Source of the DNA: Siniperca chuatsi
Taxonomy: Eukaryota > Chordata > Actinopteri > Centrarchiformes > Sinipercidae
Direction: 5' to 3'
Length of the DNA stretch: 64,000 nucleotides
Assembly (NCBI RefSeq): GCF_020085105.1
Contig: NC_058044.1
Span: 23,111,206 to 23,175,205, forward strand
Under the pieces are notes generated by a model. The model was not told the DNA's origin. It was given only the letters and a program-made list of their open reading frames with translations, and ran no database searches. Below are positions 45,401-47,842 of the stretch, in pieces. Positions within the stretch are counted from its first letter, which is position 1. Each line of letters begins with the position of its first letter. The position numbers and the translations under genes are program-made.

Positions 45401-47842
45401 AATGTTTGGATGTAAAAGCTCCTGACATGTTTTTGTTTTATACCGGTGTGGTGTTCTATTTTTAGTTTTTGAAATGTTTGTCTTTTAGATGTTTTTTGAC
45501 ACTTTCCCTCTCTGTCTCTCTGTCTTAACGTGGACCTGTAGGAACCTTCAGAAACAAGCAGAGTATGAGCTCTCCTTTATTGAGCGCCACTTCCTCGTGC
45601 ACTGTGGTTCAATTCATAGCCTATCTGTCCAATGTTTGCACACAGTAATTATTCATAGACCATAAAGACATAACATTCATCTCTTCCATGTGGCTACATA
45701 CATACAACATTTCATCAAAGAATATTGTTAGTATCCAAATCCCTCAGTAGGCACATGAACCCTAAACTCTGCTCATTCATTCATACGTTCATTTGTGTAA
45801 ATCTCTTTATGTCAATCTTTTATCCCTGTTCGGTAATTGGCATCTTCCTGTTTCTACCAACAGAGGGTAGTGTGTCCCAGAGCCAGGAGTCCTGTGGGTT
45901 GGACAGTGTGTGTCTCAATGGAGGCTACACCCCCAACACCTTCACCCTGCACGGTCTGGGAACCACCCCCGGGTCCCGAGCTGGAGTGGTGGGCAGCACT
46001 GACCTTCTGAGGGAGGGAGGAGTTGGGATAGGAGGGGATGACATCTCACCAGCCCTCCTCACCCCCCACGGAGCCACGGATCTGGGCAGCGGTGCTGGAA
46101 TGCGTCGTAACCTGTCTGATGCAGCTGCGCTGGAAAAGATGATCATCTCAGAGCTGGTGCAGAGCAACCTGAGGCCCTCAGTTCCCATGCCTGTTCCTCC
46201 TGAGCGCTACGGAAGCCTGGCGAGGCCACACCACCACGACAGGGCAGCTCTCACTCACACTGCCACTTTAACTCGACACGCACAGCCACCCCAAGAGGGC
46301 TGGGCTGCCACCATGCAGCCAAACACACGCCACAACGCACAAGAGGGCTGGGCGCATACGAGGCACCACACACAAGATGCTGAGACACATTCCACAACAC
46401 GTGGACAAGATCATGCCACGACGCCACGCCTACAAGATGGCTGGTCGCACTCACGGGTTCCTGGAGATTCGGAGTCCCGTGAGCTGCTTAAAGATGGGGA
46501 CAGGTCACAGCTGCAAGGCACTCTGGGTCGCCGCGGGCTCCAGGACAGGCAGCAAGCGCGTCCCCCTGATGTTCAGGCTCGGCCCTACTCCACCCTCAGC
46601 CGCACACCTGGCACTCTGTCCCGCCACCGCAACACAGTGGAGTCGAACGGAGGGACAGACAGAGAGAGAGACAGGGAGAGAGACAGGGAACGTTACCGGG
46701 ACAGACCCCTCCCGCCTCCTCCTCCCCCTCCCCCACAGGAGTCTGAGCCCCTGTACAAGGCTCTGGAAGAGCCGCTGCTGATGAATAAGAGGGAGGCAGG
46801 CGTAGAGACATGGAGAGGCGGCCAGGACAGAGAGAAGGACGAGACATTTCTCTTAAAAAGAGACGGAATGATGGACGAATGGAGGGGAGGAACTGAGAGA
46901 GGGAGGGATGAGTCTTTTACTTCTCCGAAGAGAGATGAAGAGATGGACGAATGGAGAGGTGGAATGGAGAGAGGGAGGGAGGAATCTCATCTGCTGGAGA
47001 AGAGAGGTGGAAGGATGGAGGTGTGGCGGGGAGGAGCAGAGACAGAGCAGGAGGAGACTTTTATAACTCAGAAGAAAGATTTTGGGATTGACGGCTGGAA
47101 AGGCGGGATGGAGAGAGAGAAAGATGAATCCTTTTTTTTAAAGGACAGAGATGGATGGAGGGCAGGGATTGAACGAGAGAATGAGAAACAGAAGGATAGA
47201 GCACTGGATGTGTGGAGGGGAGGGATGGATATAGACAGGGAGGAATCTTTCCTGTTTGAGAGCAAAGATGGAGGTCTCGATGCGAGGAAAAGAGGATCTC
47301 TTCGGTACCACGGCGAACGAGAGGATTCTGACAGCTTTGCTCTGCCTTTGACCCCTGACCTCGACCTTGACCCTGACTCTTCACCTATCTACGCCCGAGA
47401 TTCAAACCCCTCTCCGCTCTACCCCGGAGACCGCCGCTCACCGCCACTCAGCATCTTCCCCCGAAGCTCTCCCCCAACGAATATCTTCGCTCCTCGAGAC
47501 ACTAACTCGCCACCAAACAATCTCTACTCACGCCACTCCCCCCAGGTGTACAGCCGAAGCAGCTCCCCTCCTCGCTTCTATACCCGCACTTCCCCTCCGA
47601 CCCTCTCGTACCCCGACAGCAGCCCTGAAGGTCCAGAAGAGGTCAGCCCCACTGGCCAGCCCCAGCGGCCCGCCCTGGAACTTCCCTACAGCCTGGGGCG
47701 ACCCCCGCTGGGGCCTCGGCCCAATCACCTGCAGACCTTCTACCAGCCGCCACCTCTGGCATCCAATGGAGAGGCAGTGTACTCAGCAGAGTCTGCCTCT
47801 GAGGGAGACGACGGACAGATGCAGCGGGTGACGAGCCTGTGA
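24336..47842 (+). CDS. adgrl1: adgrl1, latrophilin-1 adhesion G-protein-coupled receptor, complete
   Basis: Synaptic adhesion GPCR that binds teneurins and FLRTs. Coding exons: 24336-24405, 26328-26541, 27025-27134, 27926-27940, 29251-29458, 32929-33193, 33282-33621, 33700-33993, 35206-35309, 35427-35612, 35722-35760, 35937-36117, 36230-36352, 36626-36843, 36972-37145, 37935-38147, 41125-41345, 41523-41589, 41734-41822, 43433-43601, 43707-43856, 43944-44040, 44149-44259, 45542-45562, 45864-47842. All phases agree, giving 1,885 residues with both microexons (human is about 1,470). Order: signal peptide 1-23; Gal-type (RBL) lectin about 33-131 with [10 protein letters not shown]; olfactomedin about 137-400; Pro/Thr linker; HormR about 470-540; GAIN about 541-834 with [11 protein letters not shown] cut at 37106/37107; seven helices about 850-1100; cytoplasmic tail. 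The tail keeps [27 protein letters not shown] and YPDSSPEGP and ends in PDZ ligand VTSL. It is enlarged by repeats. Boundaries were read by eye. Confidence 0.95.
24426..24500 (+). repeat. 75-bp direct repeat, copy A (start of adgrl1 intron after the signal exon)
   Basis: From CATGTTTGAGGTGTTGATCC to GGAAGCAATAGATT. Copy B at 25459-25533 differs at only about four positions. Confidence 0.85.
25360..25590 (+). repeat. Interspersed repeat (CTCTAGATAGGGCCA ... CACACTGGACCTTT), interrupted
   Basis: The two ends match a repeat I recognise as common in teleosts. The 75-bp copy B replaces or interrupts the middle. Class unknown. Confidence 0.5.
25459..25533 (+). repeat. 75-bp direct repeat, copy B, inside another repeat
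   Basis: CATGTTCAAGGTGTTGATCC to GGAAGCAATTGATT. It interrupts an interspersed repeat whose left part (GGCTCTAGATAGGGCCA, at about 25360) and right part (CACCACTAGATGCCACTAAA, at about 25550) flank it. Confidence 0.85.
25670..25990 (-). repeat. GTTAGCATGCTAAC family, copy 2 (relative to copy 1, reversed)
   Basis: It shows CATAACATTTTGTACAGACC, TTCATGATCCCCAGAGGATG, TGACTTTGGTGATCCTCTGAC, AGTGCCACAATGAGGTTGA and CATGTTAGCATGCTGACATG in order, as in the copy at 53305-53580. Confidence 0.7.
27736..27829. repeat. (CTTT)n tract upstream of the microexon
   Basis: About 23 uninterrupted CTTT units, 97 bp before the 15-nt microexon. Confidence 0.95.
27926..27940 (+). other. adgrl1: adgrl1 15-nt microexon encoding KVDQK between lectin and olfactomedin domains
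   Basis: Between acceptor tgagtag and donor gtaaag, 15 nt complete the split codon of the lectin exon and insert K-V-D-Q-K, in phase on both sides. Mammalian latrophilins have the equivalent optional KVEQK insert, known to influence teneurin binding. A TGC word lies about 9 nt before the exon (27915-27917) after a long pyrimidine tract, the arrangement seen at neuronal SRRM4-dependent microexons; that regulation is inferred. Confidence 0.88.
28384..28490. repeat. (CTTT)n tract downstream of the microexon
   Basis: A second CTTT array of similar length, about 440 bp after the microexon. Confidence 0.95.
29494..29662 (-). repeat. GCTGCAACTAA-type repeat, reversed fragment
   Basis: Reverse complement shows GATTAATCTATTAATTTAT, CAGAGCCCAAGGTCACATC and CAAAACCCAAAAGTAACT in family order. 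Confidence 0.5.
29790..30030. repeat. Probable interspersed repeat with repeated GTCA words
   Basis: CGTTCTCATTCCCAGGGTG and CTTTGGCGTTAGTAGGAGAC lead into a series of AAGTCAC/ATGTGACA words. I recognise the style from teleost repeats. Boundaries are approximate. Confidence 0.4.
30360..30880. repeat. Interspersed repeat (CATAGACTGTATATAAAGATGG family)
   Basis: It contains ACTGTATATAAAGATGGACG, AAGTGAAGCCAAAACATC, GCCTGGTGGCTGGCTGCAG and GATTGACAGCTGCGCCC, a set of words in an order I recognise as a frequent teleost repeat. No protein is encoded. Confidence 0.55.
31018..32340 (-). mobile_element. Gag-only LINE remnant (ORF1 plus 3' tail, no reverse transcriptase)
   Basis: Read on the minus strand, an ORF1 with zinc knuckles (32266-31514) continues in other frames to about 31178. 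The sequence then passes into GGTGGCGGTAATGCGC and CGCCATAAAACTCAACAG and ends in (GAA)n at 31053-31021. No endonuclease or reverse-transcriptase region lies between ORF1 and the tail, so this copy looks like a half-LINE or an internally deleted copy. Clade (I/Nimb-like) is inferred from the gag style. I found no clean target duplication. Confidence 0.65.
31514..32266 (-). pseudogene. LINE ORF1 (gag-like, CCHC zinc knuckles), degraded
   Basis: 250 residues. The acidic/lysine-rich start leads into a KYLVGMIAV...[11 protein letters not shown] region typical of gag-like nucleic-acid-binding proteins. Three knuckles follow: [14 protein letters not shown] (the usual His is Arg), [14 protein letters not shown], and [15 protein letters not shown]. 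The frame stops after CPKRN. The expected continuation ([15 protein letters not shown]) lies in another frame and itself runs to a stop, so the copy is broken. It lies antisense in an adgrl1 intron. Confidence 0.8.
34555..34845 (+). repeat. Interspersed repeat, second copy of the 11640-11910 family
   Basis: It shows GAAGACCGAAACAGAGATAAAAGG, TGCTAATGTTGCTTTATG, GCTGGATATGTAAATA and TGTGGCCAAAAAAAAATC in the same order as the first copy. It lies in the intron before the second HormR exon. Confidence 0.65.
35765..35895. repeat. (GATA)n microsatellite filling an adgrl1 intron
   Basis: About 31 GATA-type units occupy most of the 176-bp intron 35761-35936, starting four bases after the donor. Confidence 0.95.
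39679..40240 (+). pseudogene. L2 reverse transcriptase, broken
   Basis: The frame covers the fingers/palm motifs from [19 protein letters not shown] through [33 protein letters not shown] and [16 protein letters not shown]. The catalytic YADD box is not present: the position reads [12 protein letters not shown] in a shifted frame near 40235-40270. So the enzyme is dead by frameshift and by loss of the catalytic Asp pair. Confidence 0.85.
41001..41062. repeat. (ATC)n/(ATT)n tail microsatellite
   Basis: ATC repeats pass into about 16 ATT repeats. It probably grew from the 3' tail of the L2 insertion. Confidence 0.9.
41487..41520. repeat. (TG)n tract abutting a splice acceptor
   Basis: The TG run continues straight into the AG at 41521-41522 that opens the 67-nt adgrl1 exon, with no ordinary pyrimidine tract. 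Confidence 0.9.
44617..45333. mobile_element. Non-autonomous DNA transposon with a nested SINE
   Basis: The left end TAGAGCCTGACTTATACTGG and the right end, reverse-complemented TAGAGCCTGATTGATTTAT, form imperfect inverted termini. The body has GGCGATATCAACATTG and AATATTGGCCAATAATATC words. The SINE at 44845-45192 splits it. Length without the SINE and one duplication is about 355 bp. Superfamily (hAT-like) is inferred. Confidence 0.6.
44845..45192 (+). mobile_element. Full-length tRNA-headed SINE with RTE-like tail, 13-bp target duplications
   Basis: The head GGGGTGCACGGTGGCAGAGC carries an A box (TGGCAGAGCGGC, 44856-44867) and a B-box-like GGTTCGTGGGATCGATTC stretch near 44899-44917. The tail contains CTGCGACGAGTTGGCCACTG and GATAGGCTCCAGTCACCCG and ends in (ATGG)n. 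ATATTTTTCACAT flanks it exactly at 44832-44844 and 45193-45205. It belongs to the same family as the fragment at 6085-6268. Confidence 0.88.
45542..45562 (+). other. adgrl1: Candidate 21-nt cassette microexon in adgrl1 cytoplasmic tail
   Basis: Acceptor cctgtag and donor gtatga enclose 21 nt that keep frame (phase 1 on both sides) and would add about seven residues (TFRNKQK in context). Skipping also preserves frame. Use is inferred from splice sites and phase only. Confidence 0.5.
46279..46460 (+). repeat. Degenerate QEGW/His-rich repeat in the adgrl1 tail
   Basis: [28 protein letters not shown] and LQDGWSHSR recur within about 60 residues, the first two 16 residues apart. The stretch is very rich in His, Thr and Gln. 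Confidence 0.7.
46805..47300 (+). repeat. In-frame tandem repeat, 72-bp unit (24 residues), in the adgrl1 tail
   Basis: Trp codons begin at 46811, 46880, 46952, 47024, 47096, 47156 and 47213, and an eighth degenerate unit starts at 47285 where Arg replaces Trp. Spacings are 69, 72, 72, 72, 60, 57 and 72 bp. The consensus is about W-R-G-G-x-E-R-x-x-D-E-S-F-x-x-x-K-R-D-x-x-M-D-E. The array directly follows the conserved YKALEEPLL motif and falls at about residues 1543-1701. Confidence 0.95.
47380..47630 (+). repeat. Ser/Pro-Tyr-rich degenerate repeats in the adgrl1 tail
   Basis: Units of the type SPxxYxRxSSPP recur ([59 protein letters not shown]), leading into the conserved [10 protein letters not shown]. 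Human ADGRL1 keeps only a short version of this stretch, as far as I recall. Confidence 0.75.

Follow-up and report, generated by a model that had tools for sequence, protein, structure and literature searches.

Is a tandem tryptophan repeat in the cytoplasmic tail of a fish latrophilin a selected peptide, or only the outcome of repeat growth in a tolerant exon? The question is raised by a 64,000-nucleotide stretch of the Siniperca chuatsi genome (contig NC_058044.1, positions 23,111,206 to 23,175,205 of the forward strand), called here the window. A latrophilin gene in the window possesses, in its last coding exon, seven in-frame units, each opened by a tryptophan, which extend from 46811 to 47278 or 47284. 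The array is situated between a conserved KALEEPLL block and a conserved acidic-serine block. The tryptophan codons lie at 46811, 46880, 46952, 47024, 47096, 47156 and 47213, giving spacings of 23, 24, 24, 24, 20 and 19 residues. The units measure 69, 72, 72, 72, 60, 57 and 66 bases, every one a multiple of 3. They follow the pattern W-[RK]-G-G-x-[DE]-R-x-x-[DE]-E-[ST]-F, in which W1 and G4 are invariant (7/7) and the [ST]F pair is kept in 5 of the 7. The units, each delimited by unit cutting and by a unit hidden Markov model (HMM), are as follows.

46811..46879, plus strand: unit 1, 23 residues
46880..46951, plus strand: unit 2, 24 residues
46952..47023, plus strand: unit 3, 24 residues, SH in place of SF
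47024..47095, plus strand: unit 4, 24 residues
47096..47155, plus strand: unit 5, 20 residues, without the last four
47156..47212, plus strand: unit 6, 19 residues, without the [ST]F part
47213..47284, plus strand: unit 7, 22 residues as cut, 24 by the HMM

The unit HMM recovered all seven units with 27-44 bits, a circular result since it was built from the same seven, and, across the 1620 six-frame stretches of at least 25 residues in the window, gave no other match above its inclusion threshold. A first-pass annotation of this DNA had described an in-frame tandem tryptophan array directly after YKALEEPLL in a latrophilin-1-type tail, with seven clear units and a degenerate eighth, two shorter units having lost multiples of three bases. 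The seven in-frame tryptophan codons, the open frame and an autocorrelation peak at 24 residues bear out the array itself. Its placement agrees with the Pfam match and sister-tail alignment given below, and units 5 and 6, with 60 and 57 bases, are indeed the two shortened ones. The supposed eighth unit, which is devoid of tryptophan, was not detected by the unit HMM.

Residue autocorrelation was maximal at lag 24 (44 of 132 identities), a value reached in none of 5000 shuffles. The second-best of the 16 lags compared (15 to 30) was 23, and this was matched by 169 of the 5000. At the DNA level, units 2-4 agreed at lag 72 in 91 of 144 positions, while the maximum among 2000 dinucleotide shuffles was 67. 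Tandem Repeats Finder called only 2.2 copies, at 46859-47019. Such a head-to-tail periodicity of 72 bases could also come from a recent minisatellite, or from a dispersed satellite captured in a coding exon by chance. The unit pairs are however only 53-75% identical in DNA, and no stop codon interrupts the seven units. The genome, 719 Mb in 65 contigs, was searched by protein and by DNA (E up to 10), and each search placed the array at a single site; these searches skipped simple repeats and common words and scored only the best candidates. A single match does not suggest an evident dispersed satellite. Within these limits the evidence for genome-wide uniqueness is strong but not absolute, and a satellite origin is disfavoured as extremely improbable. 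Other searches also revealed no relatives. No Pfam family matched the array at E up to 1, and the whole exon as query gave 3 pattern matches in viral_contigs and 41 in genome_contigs, none of them confirmed. In PDB only weak matches of low-complexity type were obtained, two for the tail exon at E up to 1 and one for the array at E 0.94. No report of the array was found in the titles and abstract openings of the open literature on latrophilin tails, tandem repeats and fish adgrl1.

The host gene reads as an ADGRL1-type latrophilin, the array lying in its cytoplasmic tail; the subtype was assigned from tail motifs and without a tree. The exon matches PF02354, the latrophilin C-terminal region, with 65.7 bits against a curated cut-off of 27. 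The open frame containing it runs from 45674 to 47842, and an acceptor-like ...ctaccaacag stands directly 5' of the exon at 45866. The tail ends in VTSL, a PDZ-binding type of C terminus. Upstream, a seven-transmembrane (7TM) stretch within 40990-41337 has solved ADGRL3 and ADGRL2 chains as its best matches (E 2.8e-23 and 6.5e-23). The features of the exon outside the units are listed below.

45866..47842, plus strand: last coding exon of the ADGRL1-type latrophilin, 658 residues and stop (open reading frame; PF02354, E 5.5e-18; start read from the sequence)
45869..46186, plus strand: PF02354 block 1, profile about 110-181 (Pfam match)
46745..46783, plus strand: block including KALEEPLL, common to the window copy and its sister ADGRL1 (four-tail alignment)
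47297..47341, plus strand: acidic-serine block aligned with the sister's SVLYQSDPEESESYT, a possible founder or eighth unit (alignment, profile scan)
47585..47842, plus strand: PF02354 block 2, profile 294-372 (Pfam match)

The same tail has a smaller second tryptophan repeat at 46292-46446 (plus strand), where a 14-base element occurs three times and encodes QEGWA, QEGWA and QDGWS. Its copies start 48 and 93 bases apart, and the third is 86% identical.

Latrophilin tails were found at six loci in the genome (23 exon-wise matches), on contigs C13, C6, C21 and C22 and at two places on C3 including the window. Tail motifs, again read without a tree, group C21 with the window as ADGRL1, C13 with C6 as ADGRL2, and C22 with C3:16.997M as ADGRL3. 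In zebrafish, ADGRL1a and ADGRL1b are named, and PMC8584163 regards the teleost genome duplication as the most probable origin of such paralogue pairs of fish. The window tail is 46% identical to its sister on C21 (L005), against 30 and 31% to the ADGRL2-like tails (L003 and L004). In an alignment of these four tails, KALEEPLL is common to both ADGRL1 copies, then the array follows in the window copy only, and then the alignment resumes; in the sister the array site is uninterrupted. PF02354 covers the sister in a single stretch (112-372) and the window tail only at 110-180 and 294-372, so that the continuous mid-tail between profile positions 181 and 294 is lacking in the window copy. Both copies share KALEEPLL, S..Y....E[DE]S[DE]S, the YPDSSPE region and the C terminus DGQMQ.VTSL in the same order. 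They differ in that the sister proceeds from KALEEPLL to SVLYQSD without a repeat. The array-bearing copy is also expanded, with 658 exon residues against 304 in the matched stretch of the sister. There are 10 tryptophans in the window tail exon and none in the sister, nor in the matched tail stretches of any of the five paralogues (L003, L004, L005, L006 and L007+L008). These stretches also contain no WRGG or WKGG and no unit-HMM match above the inclusion threshold.

Some further differences among the paralogues were observed. One 7TM block at 41122-41352 (with L025/L026 and L023/L024) is 63.6% identical to ADGRL2 on C13, while the sister reaches 77.2%; this block gives a hint of faster change in the window ADGRL1 copy. 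Four other shared blocks have window and sister identities to ADGRL2 of 68.2 and 73.3, 50.0 and 49.2, 77.1 and 78.9, and 48.3 and 34.2%, a smaller or reversed difference. The ADGRL3-like tail on C3 (L007, L008; G000:C3:16995140-17000097) occupies two exons (profile 109-208 and 205-372), unlike those on C13, C6, C21 and C22, each of which is one open stretch. This locus lies about 6 Mb from the window ADGRL1 on the same contig.

Comparison between the units points to constraint on the peptide. Over 435 codon pairs of the seven units, the difference by codon position was 0.269, 0.324 and 0.503. Neutral simulations were started from the consensus with the base composition of the array, under three kappa values with 2000 runs each. 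Residue identity as high as the observed 0.464 arose in 0, 0 and 1 of these runs; the excess at third positions was attained in 1, 1 and 0, and no run attained the synonymous share. Shuffling within codons attained the excess in 18 of 20000 trials over the whole unit and in 43 of 20000 when confined to the first 13 codons. A codon model gave omega of 0.26, 0.34 and 0.28 on three topologies, one star and two guessed, with a codon alignment guided by the protein alignment (2dlnL of 19.5, 14.7 and 19.4 against omega of 1). As third positions are the most different and omega is 0.26-0.34, selection of the units at the protein level is supported. The constraint measured is an average across the history of the units and not proof of present constraint. 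Neutral branch lengths are saturated, with values up to 4.3 per codon under the star topology, and therefore give the array no date.

The array may best be read, tentatively but as a plausible explanation, as a copy-specific and probably disordered multivalent array of linear motifs (W[RK]GGx[DE]R..[DE]E[ST]F) which tunes what the receptor tail binds. It would have originated by tandem duplication within one ADGRL1 copy. Each unit would act as a short linear motif anchored by its aromatic residue, most of the units also carrying a single serine or threonine directly ahead of a phenylalanine. With up to seven such units in series, the tail could hold a partner with greater avidity; actin or the postsynaptic scaffold machinery is the likeliest candidate, and phosphorylation at [ST]F would be a likely switch. 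The available text of PMC10830413 reports that the LPHN3 tail and its PDZ motif put the receptor on SHANK-containing condensates, and that splicing of this tail shifts G-alpha coupling. By analogy, a multivalent insert could tune scaffold recruitment and G-protein coupling.

The units might instead be repeats of a docking motif already described, namely the WAVE complex interacting receptor sequence (WIRS), a dileucine sorting signal or a kinase site. With the common definitions of kinase and sorting motifs, [ST]F and [DE]x[ST]-hydrophobic each occur in 5/7 units, [RK]xx[ST]-hydrophobic in 4/7 and [DE]xxxL[LI] in 2/7. BAI2, BAI3, neuroligins and, at another site, LPHN1 are among the WIRS carriers given in the accessible part of PMC10318009. 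Strict WIRS (hydrophobic-x-[ST]-F-x-x) is however absent from the array, where the first residue is aspartic or glutamic acid, and W[RK]GG is explained by none of the classes. The enrichment of motifs over shuffles stems from the repetition itself and is not independent evidence. Among the classes checked, none is common to all units, and repeats of a known docking motif are improbable. Of the selected docking or phosphorylation module proposed in the first-pass annotation, the selection at protein level is supported; docking and phosphorylation stay conjectural.

Several observations weigh against a selected multivalent array. The signal is carried by the first 13 codons, the excess in the remaining codons being attained in 1114 of 20000 within-codon shuffles. 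Among the 21 unit pairs, one has a dN/dS of 1.01 by the NG86 method, and in 8 dS is saturated and yields no ratio. Unit 6 is without [ST]F, and in unit 3 the phenylalanine is absent. The antisense frame with the same third positions is just as well conserved (mean identity 0.602 vs 0.567), so this test leaves the strand unfixed and the strand is set by gene context. A low predicted local distance difference test (pLDDT) score from a lone sequence is a weak sign of disorder. Finally, the array is rich in purines at every codon position (0.77, 0.72 and 0.69), as expected from a GA-rich founder. An antisense gene was considered and rejected: its frame is broken by stops between open reading frames 46693-46986 and 47068-47388, and the sense frame continues into conserved latrophilin blocks. 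As to structure, AlphaFold2 modelled 200 residues from the single sequence with mean pLDDT of 47.9 and a predicted template modelling score (pTM) of 0.16, with one low-confidence helix at model residues 135-158, a result compatible with disorder.

The composition invites an explanation by near-neutral growth. In this account a purine-rich, low-complexity stretch expanded in a tolerant disordered tail where nothing beyond the open frame and the bulk composition was held, and the units add length and charge and have no specific reader. The array has a charged fraction of 0.48 and a net charge of -0.07 per residue, while the charged fraction before and after it is 0.24 and 0.21. Purines occupy 62% of its 48 four-fold sites, against 46% of the 301 in other exon parts. 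The purine excess is thus smaller at four-fold sites, as it would be if the array was born from GA-rich sequence and synonymous sites then drifted in part. A simple-repeat stretch upstream, near 46646-46690, is the best match outside the array to the first 12 and 13 columns of the unit profile. The expansion of the whole tail and the divergence of the 7TM block from ADGRL2 (63.6% vs 77.2% in the sister) agree with such growth too, this difference being smaller or reversed in the four other blocks. Charge alone, however, needs neither the invariant W1 and G4 nor [ST]F in 5/7 units; residue identity is above that of composition-matched neutral simulations, and omega is well below 1. Near-neutral growth appears somewhat unlikely, and it deserves serious weight.

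GA-rich tracts can also be splicing enhancers. The purine-rich sense strand could thus serve at the RNA level as a purine-type exonic enhancer for the long last exon, with the peptide as by-product. According to PMC10830413, splicing in Lphn3 is most extensive in the C-terminal sequence. An enhancer would need neither 72-base phasing nor an intact frame, and the third positions are the least conserved, which is opposite to the expectation from RNA constraint alone. This role is thus highly improbable. Separately, the poly-proline coding stretch at 46715-46739, 5' of KALEEPLL, resembles a strong 3' splice acceptor, and an unrecognised alternative splice there is possible. Splicing out of the array itself was considered and rejected; the few patterns scanned gave no donor-like match in the exon, and all acceptor-like matches were confined to the one tract from 46715.

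The acidic-serine block at 47297..47341 was compared with the unit profile among the non-array positions of the window tail and the paralogue tails. It ranked 3 of 1921 on 12 columns, 2 of 1913 on 13 columns and only 20 of 1825 on all 24, and hence its role as founder or eighth unit is only suggested. A more far-reaching proposal starts from such a site. After the duplication, the tail of one ADGRL1 copy might have become a multivalent scaffold of tryptophans and phospho-motifs, in which an acidic-serine-aromatic site near KALEEPLL was copied serially and gained a tryptophan anchor. Up to seven aromatic stickers, or ten with the upstream tryptophan repeat, would then be offered to postsynaptic condensates, and labour would be divided between the copies. 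This proposal is speculative and has little chance of being correct as it stands. A paired receptor with and without a multivalent insert in the same animal would provide a natural experiment on how tail valency affects synapse assembly. The array is also of interest as a tandem repeat with enough divergence between its units to reveal purifying selection, in a region that is probably disordered.

Other elements of the window lie apart from the latrophilin exon. Two similar open reading frames at 10627-11058 and 13946-14326 (plus strand), AMFKVRDVPTVVVLRPDGSIL and AMFNVEELPTVVVLRPDCSIL, have the look of tandem duplicates and presumably belong to a nucleoredoxin-like gene. Broken frames resembling endonuclease and reverse transcriptase, of a type which we take to be LINE, occur at 38510-40823 and 58415-61373 (plus strand), and an open reading frame with a zinc knuckle at 31514-32275 (minus strand) presumably carries the same label.

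Comparable arrangements are found in two known systems. The tail of cephalopod rhodopsin carries coding tandem repeats of PPQGY. As in the latrophilin array, a short peptide is arranged head to tail in the tail of a G-protein-coupled receptor; the sequences are unrelated, and divergence among the latrophilin units is sufficient for a dN/dS signal. The likeness to WIRS, as described in the accessible part of PMC10318009, lies in [ST]F with two following residues in an adhesion-receptor tail. The latrophilin units differ from it in having aspartic or glutamic acid at the first position in place of a hydrophobic residue, a W[RK]GG flank, and an arrangement in tandem copies.

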